DNA of 64,000 bases, taken from contig NC_036446.1 in assembly GCF_002775205.1 (NCBI RefSeq), positions 15,438,565-15,502,564 of the forward strand. The letters run 5' to 3'. The position numbers and the translations under genes were made by a program. Shown here in pieces: positions 1 through 17,400 of this stretch. This stretch comes from Xiphophorus maculatus. Its lineage: Eukaryota; Chordata; Actinopteri; Cyprinodontiformes; Poeciliidae. The notes beneath the pieces were generated by a model that saw nothing but the letters and a program-made list of their open reading frames with translations, was not told where the DNA came from and did no database searches. Positions within the stretch are counted from its first letter, which is position 1. Each line of letters opens with the position of its first letter.

Positions 1-1078
1 CTTCAAAGAGATCCACAACTAGTTGTAACAATAGACTTAATTTAATAAACATTTATATCAGATGTAAAAACAACTCTGTAAAACTACTGTAAGTTTTTTT
101 ATACATTTAAATAAAACATTATCACAGAGACATTGCCATGCTGTTAAGGCGTAAAATACATTTTGGGTAATTGACCTATGCTAGTTGATGGAGCGCTCGC
201 TCAGTCCACAAAAAAAAACTGTAATTTTTGCGCAATAAGTAACGTTCAGCTAATAAAATACCACTTCAGAAGGGAATTAAATACTGCAAAGAGCTCAAAT
301 TTCTAACATGATGCAACATTTTTGAAGTAATTATTAGTTTTCCATATAACAAATTAATTAAAGAAAACTCGAGTTTTAGATGTAGAAACTAATGTCTGCA
401 CTGGTACTTTTCAGTGAATTTAACTGTTACCAAATTTTCCTAAAATCCACCAAGTGTTTACATTTATGAAAAATAACTCTGACCAGTTGCCTTATGTGAT
501 GTCACACGAGACGTATGTGTGAAAGTTTAATTTCGTAAATTTTATCCTGATTAAGTAATGATTTCCAACTGGACAGCTAACCAAATAGAAAAAAAACAAT
601 CAATGCTATAATATTCTATACATTTTGTTAATTGATTACACACACACACAAAAAAAAAAGACTGGCTTGTAACTTTAAACATTTATTAAAAGCTTCCGAT
701 CGAATAATGAATATCAAAATACTTTACCAACTTTAATCCAACACTTAACGGTTGCATTATTAAACGAGAAAACAACACTATTTTTACAAGTCGGCCAGTT
801 TTTGTAGAGTTTCAGATTTCAGGGGGTGTGCGCTGACACAACAACACAAAGCTAACGCCGACATGTTGCTTGTTAACCCGACCACCGGAGGAAAGTTTTA
901 CACGTTGCTCGGACTTCGCTTCGTTTCTTTGCGTGATCTGGTAATTGGGAAAACTACCCTGTAATCAGATGGTTTTCAGTGTTTAGCATAGCTACATTGT
1001 TAGCAATGAAAGGACTGAATTCAGCGTCTCCTTATAAGACGGCCTCCAACACGTTTCCAGCTCCGGTGCAGTCCTCAC
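1..1078 (-). other. pdcd5: pdcd5 intron 1 (partial)
   Basis: This is AT-rich sequence directly downstream, on the minus strand, of the pdcd5 exon 1 splice donor. I see no further pdcd5 exon here: the helical core and the acidic C-terminus of the family are not encoded on either strand. The intron therefore continues beyond the left edge. There is a short CA run followed by poly-A near 640-660, and nothing else is recognisable. Confidence 0.6.
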
Positions 1079-1144
1079 CCCTTGCTTCGCCTGCAGTTCC
1101 GCCATCCTCTGCCGCCTTATCGCCTCCAATTCTTCGTCTGCCAT
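1079..1144 (-). CDS. pdcd5: pdcd5 exon 1 (programmed cell death protein 5, 5' end only)
   Basis: Read on the minus strand, 22 codons begin [17 protein letters not shown] and end in a lysine-glutamine-glycine. They are followed immediately by a GTGAGG splice donor (intron starts at 1078). The start matches the conserved N-terminus of PDCD5, a small (about 125 residue) helical nuclear/cytoplasmic protein linked to apoptosis and to the TIP60 and CCT chaperonin machinery in vertebrates. The exon ends in phase 0. The remaining exons must lie left of the window. The sequence upstream (1145-1340) is GC-richer and is the probable promoter side. A diverged copy of this exon and its upstream region sits at 8538-8594. 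The assignment rests on the N-terminal motif and the donor; there is little else it could be. Confidence 0.85.
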
Positions 1145-2338
1145 TATTATTCACGGGAACGTTCTCCTTCGGATATAAAACGAGATAAGATACTGTACCC
1201 GAAATGCACACTCCACTCAAATCAGAGGCAAGGCCCTACCTTAGCACAGCCCCAGATGGTCGAGAGCAGATCACACAGATCAAGCGCTCAGGCGAAAGCA
1301 ATGGAACACAGATGGGGGATCAATGAAGCTGCTGAGCCGAGTTTTCTATTTGAAACTCGCCTCAGTTCATTTTTTCATAAATGAATGTCAATGTCAGTGT
1401 CGAAATTATTTATACAGCACTTTAGAAACAGGTTTAAAACGTGCAGTACAAACATTATAATAAAATAAGTTGATGAAAAGAAAAAGATAAATAATACAAG
1501 AATAAAATATATATATACGAGGTATATATGAGGTAAAAAATAATAAGAGTAATAATAAGTAAAAAAAAAAAGAAAAAAAAAGAGAGACTTTACATGAAGG
1601 AATATAAGCTTCCAAGTGAGGACTGATCCTGTCTTGTTCAGATATCATATGTGGGTGTTCTGTGTGTGATTAATCAATTGATGACATGGTTCATTACTGT
1701 GGCTTTTATCAAATGTAAATCATTTTGGTAATTCTGACTGACCTAAAATGAGAATTTTGGTTAAAGCAAATTCTAAGAATTATGTATTTAACTGTAGAAA
1801 GTGAGCAAAAACGTATCTATTTTCATTGTGTCAACTTCTGAATCAAATATGGGGAAATAAAACTTTTGTTCCTTATAACTATAACTGATAACATTTCCAG
1901 ATCCAAATAAAAATACTATGATTTCAAGAATTTATTTGCAGAAAATTAAAAGGGTTAATGACAAAAATACAATACTTGCAGTGTGACTTTAAATGCTGAA
2001 AAAAAGTTTGTTTTACTTTTTAAAATGCACATCACTGAAGAAAAAAATGACAAGAAGGCATTTTCATTGTGAAAAAATCTATTAAAGTAAACATGTTGCT
2101 ATATTTTACATTATATAAATTATGCATAGTTTATATGCATAATTATATACTTTGTGCATAATGTATACAATGTGACACTATTGACATGTTAATTGTGATT
2201 AATTAACACTGTTAATAATCACTTAATTGCAAGCTAATCATGAAATCAGTAGAATAAATACCAAAGTTTAACATTAACTCATGCTGGTGTTTGCACCAGT
2301 AAGACTGCAGTATAGCTTTGTGGTAGTACATATAACCA
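1145..2338. other. intergenic: pdcd5 promoter side to urah 3' end
   Basis: The first 200 bases upstream of pdcd5 are comparatively GC-rich and match the corresponding stretch of unit B (8600-8790). For example, both copies share a run reading as GCAATGGAACACAGA on the plus strand. From about 1390 the sequence becomes AT-rich with poly-A and TA runs and no supportable gene. The boundary at 2338 is set by the urah poly(A) candidates. Confidence 0.5.
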
Positions 2339-14443: not shown

Positions 14444-14482
14444 TCATATTTCCTCCTCAGGGTCGGAGCTGTGGCTGCTCAT
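14444..14482 (-). CDS. RALY-like terminal coding exon, unit B (truncated tail)
   Basis: Acceptor GTCACAG, then [12 protein letters not shown] and TGA. Compared with the unit A exon (6632-6540), an indel changes frame after the EEE codons. Downstream, a frame resembling the unit A tail (ENVEDVD, then a stop, then VPNMDEEK) is still readable. The full acidic tail has been lost here. Confidence 0.75.
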   Translation of the reverse strand: MSSHSSDPEEEI

Positions 14483-17400
14483 CTGTGACAGACAAGCAGG
14501 CAAAAAGACAGACGTGGAGACGGGGAGGTGAGAGGGACAGACAAAGAGGAGGTTCATTAGCTGCCAGCTCAGAATGACTCAGGAATTTTTTTTTTCTTCT
14601 GTGAAAATAACTTGATTTCACAGACTTGGTTCATGTGGAACTTAGGAGACAGAAACTGGAATGTCTCACTCCAAATGGCTACTTTAGGAAAATAATGAGC
14701 CACTTGTTCCTTAGTGGGGCAATGTTTGGGGGGGTTTCAAAGAATACAAGCAACACATGATTGTCACACACCTTCATGTCGGGACTCTCCCTGTGGATCC
14801 GATGGCGGGAACTGGGTGGGGAGAGGGAGGACAGGGAATGCTCCGGACTGCTGGCCGTCACCACATAAGACAAGCTGAGCGGACTGTCCTCTCTCAGCGG
14901 AGACTCTGGAAAACAGGATGAGGGAGATTATACCTCTTGGAGATGAGGAACTAAAATGAAGGATTTTCGGTGAAACAGTGTGTAGAAAACGAGCTGTGAC
15001 CGGCTGGCTTTTGTAGCGGATGACAGGCAGACCACCAGAGTGGAAGTGACGGGATGAAGGACAGATGTGGAGTGAGTGGGAGGGAGATGAGAGGCGGATA
15101 GGATGCATGGTGACGGACAGACGAGTCAAATGATGGGGGGGTAAATTAATATAATGATGAAAGCTATCAATCCATCAAGGTCCCTCAGCTGCATCTCACA
15201 CAAGACGTGGATTGCTCCACAGGGACTCTGTGTGTCCTTTGTGTTTCTGTAGATTATCAGTTTGTTTAAAGCTACAGTTTAAAGTCAGTTTGCAAATAGG
15301 ATCACAGGATTTTGGCCCTTTCATTTGCATATTAAGCGCCTTGCAAAAATATTTATTTTGACTTGAACCTATGAACTTCTTTTCATGTTAAACCAAAAAT
15401 GTCCCTTTATTTTATTGAGATTAAATGTGACACACCAACACAAAGAAGTGTGTAACTGTGAGACAAAAAGAAATTTACAAATGTTTTTCCCCAATTTTTT
15501 TTTGTCAACTAAAAATCTGGAAAAGTGAGGCATGCTAATGTATTCAGCTACACTTTATCCTGCCATCTTCACTGCATGACACCATGACTTTTGGGATTTG
15601 TCTCGTCCACTTTTTCATGTCAAGAAACTGAAATGTCTTCTTTGCATAAATCAATCTCATTCATATTGGGTGGAGAGTTGCGTCCTGACATATATTGTCA
15701 ATTAGATGTACAAACTTTACTAGACCATTCCACCACAAGAACTTGCTTTAATCCACCCCATTCAAACCAGTCGTGGTTGCTCAGTACCATTGTCCTGCTG
15801 TGAGGTGAACCTCCACTCCAACCTCAAGGGTTAAGCAGCTTTTTAAAAGTTTTCTTCCAGAATTAGCCTGCACAGTATTTAACACCATTCATCCTTTAAA
15901 ATATGATCGGTTTTGCTGTCATCACTCAACAAAACCACACCCACAGCCTGATGCTCCTGTAGCACATTTTAAGATTGGGATATATCATTTTGGATATAAA
16001 CATTATATAAAGTAAATTTGTATGACTACAGCATCTTTTTCCATGTTTGCTGTTTTATCTTTCTTCTAATAGAGGCATCTTTCTCTTCACTCTTCCAGTA
16101 ATCCAACATTTGTTACGTGCACAGGTAATAACAAATAAAATCTCTACCTCTGATGTGGACCTCTGCAGCTCCTCCAGGTCGGCTTTTGGCTACTTCTCAG
16201 ATTAGTGCTAACCTTTCGTCAGTTTACGGGGAACAGTCTTGTCTTTAGTATATATAGGCATTTTTCTCTCCATTTGAGAAGCATCAATTAAAGGGTACCT
16301 GTAAAATGTTCAAAGCCTGGATGTTGTTTTATAACTTAACTCTGCTTTAAACTTGGTTCCTTGGCCTTCATGGTGCTTTGTTCCTTAATATGCCTAAAAA
16401 TTAACATTTAATTCCACACATATGTGAAGCTAACATACCTGGTGACTTCTAAAGGTAATTATTTGAACTACATTAGTCACATATTTAAAAATGTTTCTGA
16501 ATATTTTTGCAAGGCAGTCAGTGTTATGTTTGCAAGCTGGTGTAACTAATAATAAACATCCACATGATGGCAGCAAAATCCACGCAGTACTTTAGGTAGT
16601 GCTCACATAGTTTCCTTATCTTACTCCACATATTGCTTAAAACTATAGCTGTGTTAATTCACTGTGGCTAGTATTCAATTTGAAGCATATCATTACTGGA
16701 TGATGGAAATAACGGACTGATTAGTTGAAAGAGTTGTGGCTTCATTCATGCATAACATTCCCATCCTCCTCTGCCCCTGCAGCACCAATTCTGAGTCATT
16801 ATGGTCTGGACTGGTGCCTGCCAGGACTAAACCAGAATGAATCTGAAAGTAGGCGCATCACACTGAGTCTGTTTTAAAGCGATTTTGATGCACCAATAGA
16901 TTATCTATCGTTTGATCTCAAATCCGTGTGCCTCCGGCGTCGTTCTGAATGAGTGTCTCACCTTTGTGGTCGTTCTTCTGTGTGTCCATCCTGTCAAGGC
17001 TGTCAAGAAGCCCATCGATCTGTGTCTTTATCAGAGTCAGCTCTTTTTTAATCACCTGCAGCTCTTCCATCCCCACTGAAGGAAAGAGGGAGAGGGAGGT
17101 AAGCGACAATAAGAATTACAGAACCTGAAGTGCCTTTCAGCTCAGCAGAGGTTCAGGTCTAGCTAGTATTTTTTTTTAAATTGCTGCAGCTTGGTTCAGC
17201 AATGATAATGTATTTTAGGAGGAACAGTGCAGGTATTTGATTAATACTTTACATCAGTATGTTTATGTTTCAGGGTATGTTTTTTCATATGGCCTATATG
17301 ATGTTTTAGTTTGCTCAGGTATTTTCAGGCATCAATCACAAACTTGAGTTGAATGCTTTTTTTCTTTTTTTTTTTTTTACCATATTCCCTCATTCCATCC

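Follow-up and report, generated by a model that had tools for sequence, protein, structure and literature searches.

We analyzed a stretch of 64,000 nucleotides (nt) of the Xiphophorus maculatus genome (contig C4, positions 15438565 to 15502564; hereafter the window, whose positions serve as coordinates), in which a tandem duplication carries copies of pdcd5, urah, and a RALY-like gene. Unit A of the duplication (1 to 6958) runs left past the start of the window, at least to the counterpart of pdcd5 exon 2 (about -467), and unit B has an alignable extent of 8270 to 14927 when pdcd5 exon 2 is counted in. Across their junction, 5' exons copied from pdcd5 (in unit B), an exon from a Tc1 transposase, and 3' exons copied from the RALY-like gene (in unit A) form one open reading frame. 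Judging from the sequence, we give a probability of roughly 0.63 to the reading that this junction is a host-transposase fusion (HTF) gene built from spare host exons at a tandem duplication. The two "partial genes" recognized here in an earlier note on this DNA are probably not debris. All the genes treated here (pdcd5, urah, the RALY-like gene, and the putative chimera) lie on the minus strand, and the genome that we searched comprises 704 Mb in 101 contigs.

The five minus-strand exons, E1 to E5, join into a coding sequence of 708 nt (235 codons plus stop) with GT-AG introns throughout and zero internal stops. E1 (8538 to 8594) is the copy of pdcd5 exon 1, reads MADKLRKRRAAKKQKAELG, and includes the start codon; its 5' flank is also duplicated, to about 8763. 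E2 (8277 to 8317), found by BLAST against the parent, is the copy of pdcd5 exon 2, reads DPSNNQQDEKPKQ(AG), and ends in phase 2. E3 (7040 to 7422) corresponds to the Tc1 transposase DNA-binding domain (PAI plus RED of Sleeping Beauty; 127 residues), as judged from Pfam, Protein Data Bank (PDB) matches, and a splice scan. E4 (6803 to 6936) and E5 (6540 to 6632), both in unit A, are the penultimate and the last exon of the RALY-like gene, the latter with an acidic tail and the stop. With its acceptor at 7422 and its donor at 7039, E3 needs an incoming phase of 2 and gives an outgoing phase of 1. Both neighbors suit it: pdcd5-B exon 2 closes in phase 2, and phase 1 is what the RALY-like penultimate exon takes in. 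Splicing of pdcd5-B exon 1 directly to the RALY-like last exon (phases 0/0) was a candidate that we dropped once pdcd5-B exon 2 gave the phase of the Tc1 exon, and splicing of pdcd5-B exon 1 or 2 directly to the RALY-like penultimate exon was ruled out as out of frame.

Splice sites between 6.4 and 9.0 kb (173 AG and 145 GT) were ranked with a splice-site matrix. The E2 acceptor and the E2 donor each came first, and the E3 acceptor at 7422 ranked second of the 173, tied after rounding. We also scanned for in-phase internal exons, with thresholds fixed only after the sites had been seen; the junction interior holds just two open ones of at least 60 nt, namely the Tc1 exon with its alternative acceptors, one at 7422 and an in-frame one at 7389. 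Among 600 first-order resampled junctions, such an exon of at least 300 nt occurred in 0, of at least 150 nt in 2, and of at least 60 nt in 30. According to an estimate that uses the intergenic indel rate, a neutral frame of 705 nt would escape stops and frameshifts with a probability of about 0.12, 0.014, 0.0019, and 0.0002 at 0.05, 0.10, 0.15, and 0.20 changes per site, respectively.

The identity of the Tc1 exon is supported by several comparisons. The open frame at 6969 to 7439 matched Pfam HTH_SB (8e-26) and HTH_Tnp_Tc3_2 (2e-9), and the Tc1 stretch matched the solved subdomains of Sleeping Beauty, PAI (2m8e, residues 1 to 51, E 2e-8) and RED (5unk, residues 63 to 108, E 0.015). The exon retains both DNA-binding halves but neither the catalytic half nor the outer leader, and its splice acceptor lies in the transposon leader. 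AlphaFold2, run on the exon as a single sequence, gave a model with a predicted local distance difference test (pLDDT) score of 65 and two three-helix domains. With this model, Foldseek returned no match at E ≤1e-3 among 778 at E ≤10; the top PDB match was the Pax-6 paired domain (6pax, E 3.6e-3), and SETMAR (7s03, E 0.18), Mos1, Tc3, and Sleeping Beauty RED chains were among the 50 matches listed. The modeled fold fits a paired-like domain, and we read nothing further from it.

To place this exon among its relatives, we searched the genome with it. In the DNA search, 40 of 85 candidates were scored, one of them the window itself, and the closest full-block match among the 39 others was 77% identical (one shorter match reached 79%). 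In the protein search, 150 of 1,338 candidates were scored, and the top match of at least 100 residues among the 149 non-self ones was 71%. Because the best full-block genome match is just 77%, we consider the Tc1 piece old. About 1.6 kb of matching sequence is shared by two other Tc1 copies, L026 and L037; the window between 6900 and 7800 matches L026 only at 7443 to 7061 and L037 only at 7443 to 7069, that is, over the exon and its acceptor side.

We then counted unique differences per codon position in sequence trios, over the BLAST-matched part. With L026 as the third sequence, unique changes at positions 1, 2, and 3 numbered 3, 2, and 8 in the window copy versus 11, 10, and 10 in the decayed copy L048 (209 columns), and 6, 3, and 10 versus 17, 18, and 11 in the decayed copy L049 (257 columns). 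At positions 1 and 2 together, this gives 5 versus 21 (p 0.0025) and 9 versus 35 (p 0.0001), while position 3 did not differ (8 versus 10 and 10 versus 11). With L037 or L043 as the third sequence, the counts at positions 1 and 2 were 7 versus 20 or 6 versus 17 against L048, and 9 versus 34 or 9 versus 31 against L049. The Tc1 exon has thus accumulated about four times fewer changes at positions 1 and 2 than its two nearest decayed relatives. In a four-way count with L026 and L037 as outgroups, which covered 40 of the 43 other loci (L058, L059, and L066 shared fewer than 120 columns or gave no alignment), L048 (13/6/2) and L049 (9/4/4) grouped with the window copy, and L057 was marginal (5/1/4). 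The asymmetry was kept under this stricter counting, with 3, 2, and 3 changes in the window copy versus 7, 10, and 6 in L048, and 4, 2, and 6 versus 15, 17, and 7 in L049. A FastTree phylogeny of 30 sequences placed L048 beside the window copy and L049 beside both (supports 0.846 and 0.925); its long branches may be partly alignment error, so we relied on the counts. Pairwise ratios of nonsynonymous to synonymous divergence (dN/dS) between the window exon and ten other copies were 0.17 to 0.34. We read these results as suggesting that selection on the Tc1 exon went on after the element had lost its other parts.

Several observations weigh against a fusion gene. The E3 donor (AAAG|GTACTT) is weak, ranking 11th of the 145 GT sites, and the E4 donor and the E5 acceptor ranked 12th of 145 and 22nd of 173, respectively. 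The 324-nt Tc1 core alone would stay open with a probability of 0.39, 0.15, 0.06, and 0.03 at 0.05, 0.10, 0.15, and 0.20 changes per site, and the host-derived exons alone would be stop-free with a probability of 0.34 to 0.07 at 0.1 to 0.3 neutral changes per site. The copy of pdcd5 exon 1 is open yet strongly changed, and the match of pdcd5-B exon 2 could also arise if the copy were neutral and its parent constrained. In simulations, neutral change of E4 in unit A alongside a constrained parent was not rejected (P 0.003 to 0.30, depending on the assumption). Concerning the Tc1 exon, the decayed L048 likewise aligns with L026 over no more than 304 columns, which surround the domain (with three further stretches against L037), so the argument from an exon-sized island is weakened. 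The direct contrast of positions 1 and 2 with position 3 gave Fisher p values of 0.098 and 0.040 with just two decayed sequences, and some of the restraint may go back to a time when the element was still mobile.

These points bear on two rival explanations. The first is that the junction is debris: a pdcd5 copy cut short, a fossil Tc1, and RALY exons without a gene of their own, all open and in phase by luck. The poor conservation of pdcd5-B exon 1, the failure of E4 by itself to reject neutrality, the stop-free probabilities of the host exons (0.07 to 0.34), and the weak E3 donor are all compatible with debris, and the two new phase matches alone amount to a 1 in 9 chance. However, survival of the whole 705-nt frame under neutrality drops from about 0.12 to 2e-4 between 0.05 and 0.20 changes per site, and the Tc1 block is slow at positions 1 and 2 only; we regard luck as an unlikely, though by no means negligible, explanation. 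The second rival is a late insertion: a recently active Tc1 lineage would have landed in the junction, the frame being open because it is young and the slow positions reflecting selection for transposition. Codon-position counts give no date for the end of selection, and unique third-position change is modest, as such an insertion would have it. Yet no closer copy appeared among the matches scored, 39 non-self ones from 85 DNA candidates and 149 from 1,338 protein candidates, and the Tc1 piece is without its catalytic half and outer leader, which makes a late arrival improbable in our view. The fusion gene is our preferred reading, in which selection may act on the putative chimera in place.

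The duplication itself is real and old, as established by one collinear plus-strand diagonal and by the divergence between the units. Self-BLAST yielded 7 blocks of at least 40 columns on this diagonal, and these were all the rows listed below 20 kb. With sensitive settings, 8 of the 22 listed rows lay on the diagonal, and the other 14 were off-diagonal and shorter, the longest having 114 columns (E 8e-4). The best E value on the diagonal was 9e-115, which excludes a chance origin. The diagonal starts at 1063/8523 (units A/B) with pdcd5 exon 1 and continues through urah exons 4, 3, and 2 at 2504/9960, 2697/10609, and 2919/10930, through blocks with urah exon 1 and intergenic DNA at 4020-5118/11670-12816 and 5155-5506/12999-13348, and through RALY-like exon blocks at 6513-6721/14347-14588 and 6787-6958/14756-14927. 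The clean diagonal, at about 1.06 to 6.96 and 8.52 to 14.93 kb, bears out the collinear units that the earlier note had placed at about 1.0 to 7.0 and 8.5 to 15.1 kb. The A-to-B shifts along it (7460, 7456, 7912, 8011, 7650, 7844, 7834, and 7969) likewise agree with the change of shift from about 7.45 to about 8.0 kb given there, the measured values ranging from 7456 to 8011. The shared content was also described correctly as to pdcd5 exon 1, the urah exons, intergenic DNA, and the RALY-like exons; pdcd5 exon 2 had been overlooked, and urah exon 1 of unit B has no start codon. Introns 2 and 3 of urah are longer in unit B, intron 1 is shorter in B, and sensitive self-BLAST gave no A-B matches in the urah introns past the exon edges.

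Identity between the units was 87 to 92% for the blocks of urah exons 2 to 4, 65 to 75% for the urah exon 1, intergenic, and RALY-like blocks, and 63% around pdcd5 exon 1. In the aligned intergenic blocks (961 and 340 columns), Kimura two-parameter distances were 0.43 and 0.38, with 17 and 4 gaps. Identities of 63 to 92% poorly fit a duplicated haplotype, and this divergence largely answers the doubt raised by a possible assembly artifact of one locus. One assembly was examined, which leaves some room for such an artifact, but the units differ by 8 to 37% with many indels and the stretch from 7450 to 8270 has no other match in the genome; we hold an artifact to be extremely improbable. Between the urah and RALY-like exons, 4120-5118/11767-12816 (67%) and 5155-5506/12999-13348 (70%) are alignable, and these blocks are possible shared regulatory DNA. 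Unit B also contains an open frame at 13521 to 13961 with a stretch that by eye resembles the catalytic part of a Tc1 transposase (VKHGGGSIMLWVSF), possibly one of the later insertions that altered the shift.

On the RALY-like side, the match ends at 6958/14927 and the next upstream exon (about 16962 to 17075) has no copy in unit A, so the breakpoint is intronic, as previously proposed. The proposal that the other breakpoint fell in pdcd5 intron 1 failed: when the junction was compared with the pdcd5 introns by BLAST, exon 2 turned up in unit B as well (8277 to 8317; 55 columns, 82%, E 1e-9 versus -467 to -413). The breakpoint therefore lies beyond exon 2, and unit A extends leftward out of the window. 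A single duplication that ignored gene borders, the core of the earlier claim that one exchange had produced a truncated pdcd5 and an orphan RALY copy, was upheld. The labels "truncated" and "orphan" are probably wrong, since the pieces share their orientation, the Tc1 exon joins them in phase, and they read as one in-phase frame.

The parent pdcd5 has exon 1 in unit A (1079 to 1144) and exons 2 and 3 in the left flank (-460 to -420 and -1242 to -1181). Exons 1 to 3 join in frame, and pieces of later exons are visible further left (flank L009) but unjoined. Like DPSNNQQDEKPKQ in unit B, which is followed by two bases, the parent exon 2 ends with two extra bases; exons 1 and 2 total 98 nt in the B copy versus 107 in the parent. 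A search of the parent introns for a Tc1 copy gave a single weak match (53 columns; E 0.006, the search space being small), which we took as chance. A dispersed repeat lies at about 1363 to 1585, where 39 of the 40 other genome matches to window positions 1000 to 2000 fall (best, 80% over 188 bases).

The RALY-like parent has its penultimate exon at 14772 to 14905 in unit B and its last exon at 14444 to 14482. The latter is shorter than the unit A copy, from which it differs by a 14-base indel: the unit A exon keeps a 30-residue acidic tail, whereas the parent's own exon stops after EEEI. For the penultimate exon, A versus B gave a dS of 0.58 and a dN of 0.23 in frame, with ratios of roughly 1 or higher when it is read in the other frames. 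A coiled-coil exon at 16962 to 17075 (borders set by eye), for which no counterpart was found in unit A, gave a match to the coiled coil of hnRNP C (CLZ; 1txp, E 0.0049), and beyond it, near 17.83 to 18.0 kb, is a serine/arginine-rich stretch. A simple pattern scan revealed no convincing RNA recognition motif of this gene within the window, and the gene may extend outside. We use the name RALY/hnRNP C for this right-hand parent provisionally, on the strength of the coiled coil. Further right, an open frame of 429 residues on the plus strand (30034 to 31323) resembles by eye a non-long terminal repeat (non-LTR) reverse transcriptase.

We propose the following origin for the putative chimera. 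An old minus-strand tandem duplication of pdcd5 (5' part), urah, and RALY (3' part) would have brought a spare pdcd5 promoter region with exons 1 and 2 upstream of spare RALY-like terminal exons. A Sleeping Beauty-type Tc1 element, either already present between these spares or landing there later, would have had its DNA-binding region captured as an exon through the splice acceptor in its leader. This exon would act as a phase adaptor, taking phase 2 from pdcd5 exon 2 and passing phase 1 to RALY. The product would be a five-exon gene encoding 235 amino acids, with a basic pdcd5-derived start, complete PAI and RED, and a serine-rich and acidic RALY-like tail. It may be transcribed from the copied pdcd5 promoter, and the predicted protein may bind DNA resembling Tc1 ends and act there as a regulator. 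The locus is small and the pdcd5 and RALY-like parents adjoin it; the order of the steps and the onset of selection may thus be readable from related fishes.

The duplication also produced two copies of urah. The exons of urah-A lie at 4054 to 4107 (exon 1), 2923 to 3062 (exon 2), 2714 to 2849 (exon 3), and 2513 to 2602 (exon 4), and those of urah-B at 11701 to 11754 (exon 1 counterpart), 10934 to 11073 (exon 2), 10626 to 10761 (exon 3), and 9969 to 10058 (exon 4), with intact splice sites in both. Both proteins matched Pfam PF00576, 5-hydroxyisourate hydrolase (HIUase)/transthyretin (1.9e-36 for urah-A, 8.7e-39 for urah-B). From the exon 2 Met onward, A versus B gave a dS of 0.286 and a dN of 0.066 (ratio 0.23), compared with a ratio of 0.70 in the exon 1 stretch, and both copies look protein coding. 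Exon 1 of urah-A encodes a nonapeptide, RLQQLKSHI, that resembles peroxisomal targeting signal 2 (PTS2), in a leader alignable to that of zebrafish HIUase. In urah-B the start of this leader is lost (ATC for ATG) and the PTS2-like motif is altered (RLQQPRRHI). Within 220 bases of its leader and exons 1 and 2, the first in-frame ATG is in exon 2 (MSGSPSPL), and an upstream out-of-frame ATG opens a 21-codon frame. The C-terminal YRGS, an HIUase signature that zebrafish HIUase carries, is present in urah-A (STYRGS, then stop) and replaced in urah-B (STYRES, then stop).

Over 113 core residues, A and B differ at 15 positions, and from zebrafish HIUase they differ at 40 (A) and 38 (B). With the zebrafish protein and PDB 7kcn as reference, 7 of the 15 differences were departures of A alone, including HVALL for HVPLL and F for Y near the end, and 4 were departures of B alone; the higher count for A argues against drift of urah-B only. 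The urah split suggests either a division of labor or a drift of B toward another role. Exon dS between the copies (2513-3062/9969-11073) was 0.20, 0.29, and 0.48 for exons 2, 3, and 4, with few sites in each, and partial gene conversion is a possible cause of this rise. A third gene of the HIUase/transthyretin family, which starts with SPLTTCVVN and ends with STHRGK, lies on contig C2 at 25773840 to 25776979 (locus L020, 25770500 to 25779500) and is perhaps the leaderless teleost form. For the whole locus, we tentatively envisage, at somewhat less than even odds, a DNA-binding regulator with three parents, born in place, for which the duplication gave promoter, start codon, and terminal exons and Tc1 gave the domain and the phase correction. 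Beside it, a second urah would be drifting from a peroxisomal enzyme to another place and role, replaying the origin of transthyretin. Neither parent gene would have paid a cost for the regulator, because just spare copies were used.

The teleost HIUase pair is the known system closest to the urah copies. The accessible text of PMC4324301 describes two HIUase forms in teleosts, one without a peroxisomal signal; similarly, urah-A keeps the leader and urah-B has lost its start, with the difference that here the split arose by local tandem duplication and a further member lies on contig C2. As far as the accessible part of PMC8919083 reports, the zebrafish leader (RLQHIRGHI) did not direct a reporter into the peroxisomes of COS-7 cells, so the loss of the leader in urah-B may matter less than is apparent. 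The urah pair may be a more recent counterpart of the events that gave rise to transthyretin.

For the putative chimera, a search of open-licence literature gave no paper in which any three of the names pdcd5, urah, raly, Xiphophorus, and transposase come together, and among the matches listed, none describes such a gene by title or start of abstract. The nearest likeness is with HTF genes, of which Cosby et al. (2021) counted 106 in tetrapods, according to the accessible portion of PMC8290160, where an intronic DNA transposon is spliced to host exons via the element's own splice sites. Here too, a transposase-derived DNA-binding domain stands in frame with host exons; in contrast to those genes, the host exons come from two genes, are tandem-duplicated spares rather than parents, and belong to a fish, and the gene is a prediction from sequence. 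At the junction of a tandem duplication that ignores gene borders, the 5' end of one gene meets the 3' end of a different gene. In our case, the junction joins 5' exons of pdcd5 to 3' RALY-like exons on the same strand, and the fused frame is open. In Drosophila yakuba, tandem duplications that ignore gene borders likewise make chimeric gene structures, as the accessible text of PMC5460883 states; those were found in a population sample, whereas the present one is old and has a frame-restoring transposon exon between its parts. Caenorhabditis F-box genes that captured a Tc1/mariner helix-turn-helix (HTH) also have this domain inside a host protein, but in another host family and animal group, and what is named in the accessible text of PMC12062965 is the HTH, whereas both PAI and RED are kept here.

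A looser likeness is with Pax and SETMAR, for which the Foldseek matches were weak (6pax, E 3.6e-3; 7s03, E 0.18). The DNA-binding domain of SETMAR is related to or derived from Tc1/mariner transposases. The accessible portion of PMC8290160 says the same of the Pax paired domain. Both are other genes of other make, and the structural match is below significance with a model of pLDDT 65. The locus appears to combine two known routes to new genes, transposase-domain capture and the duplication-junction chimera. Duplication could render such a capture free of cost, the host ends being spares and the element serving as the phase adaptor between them.

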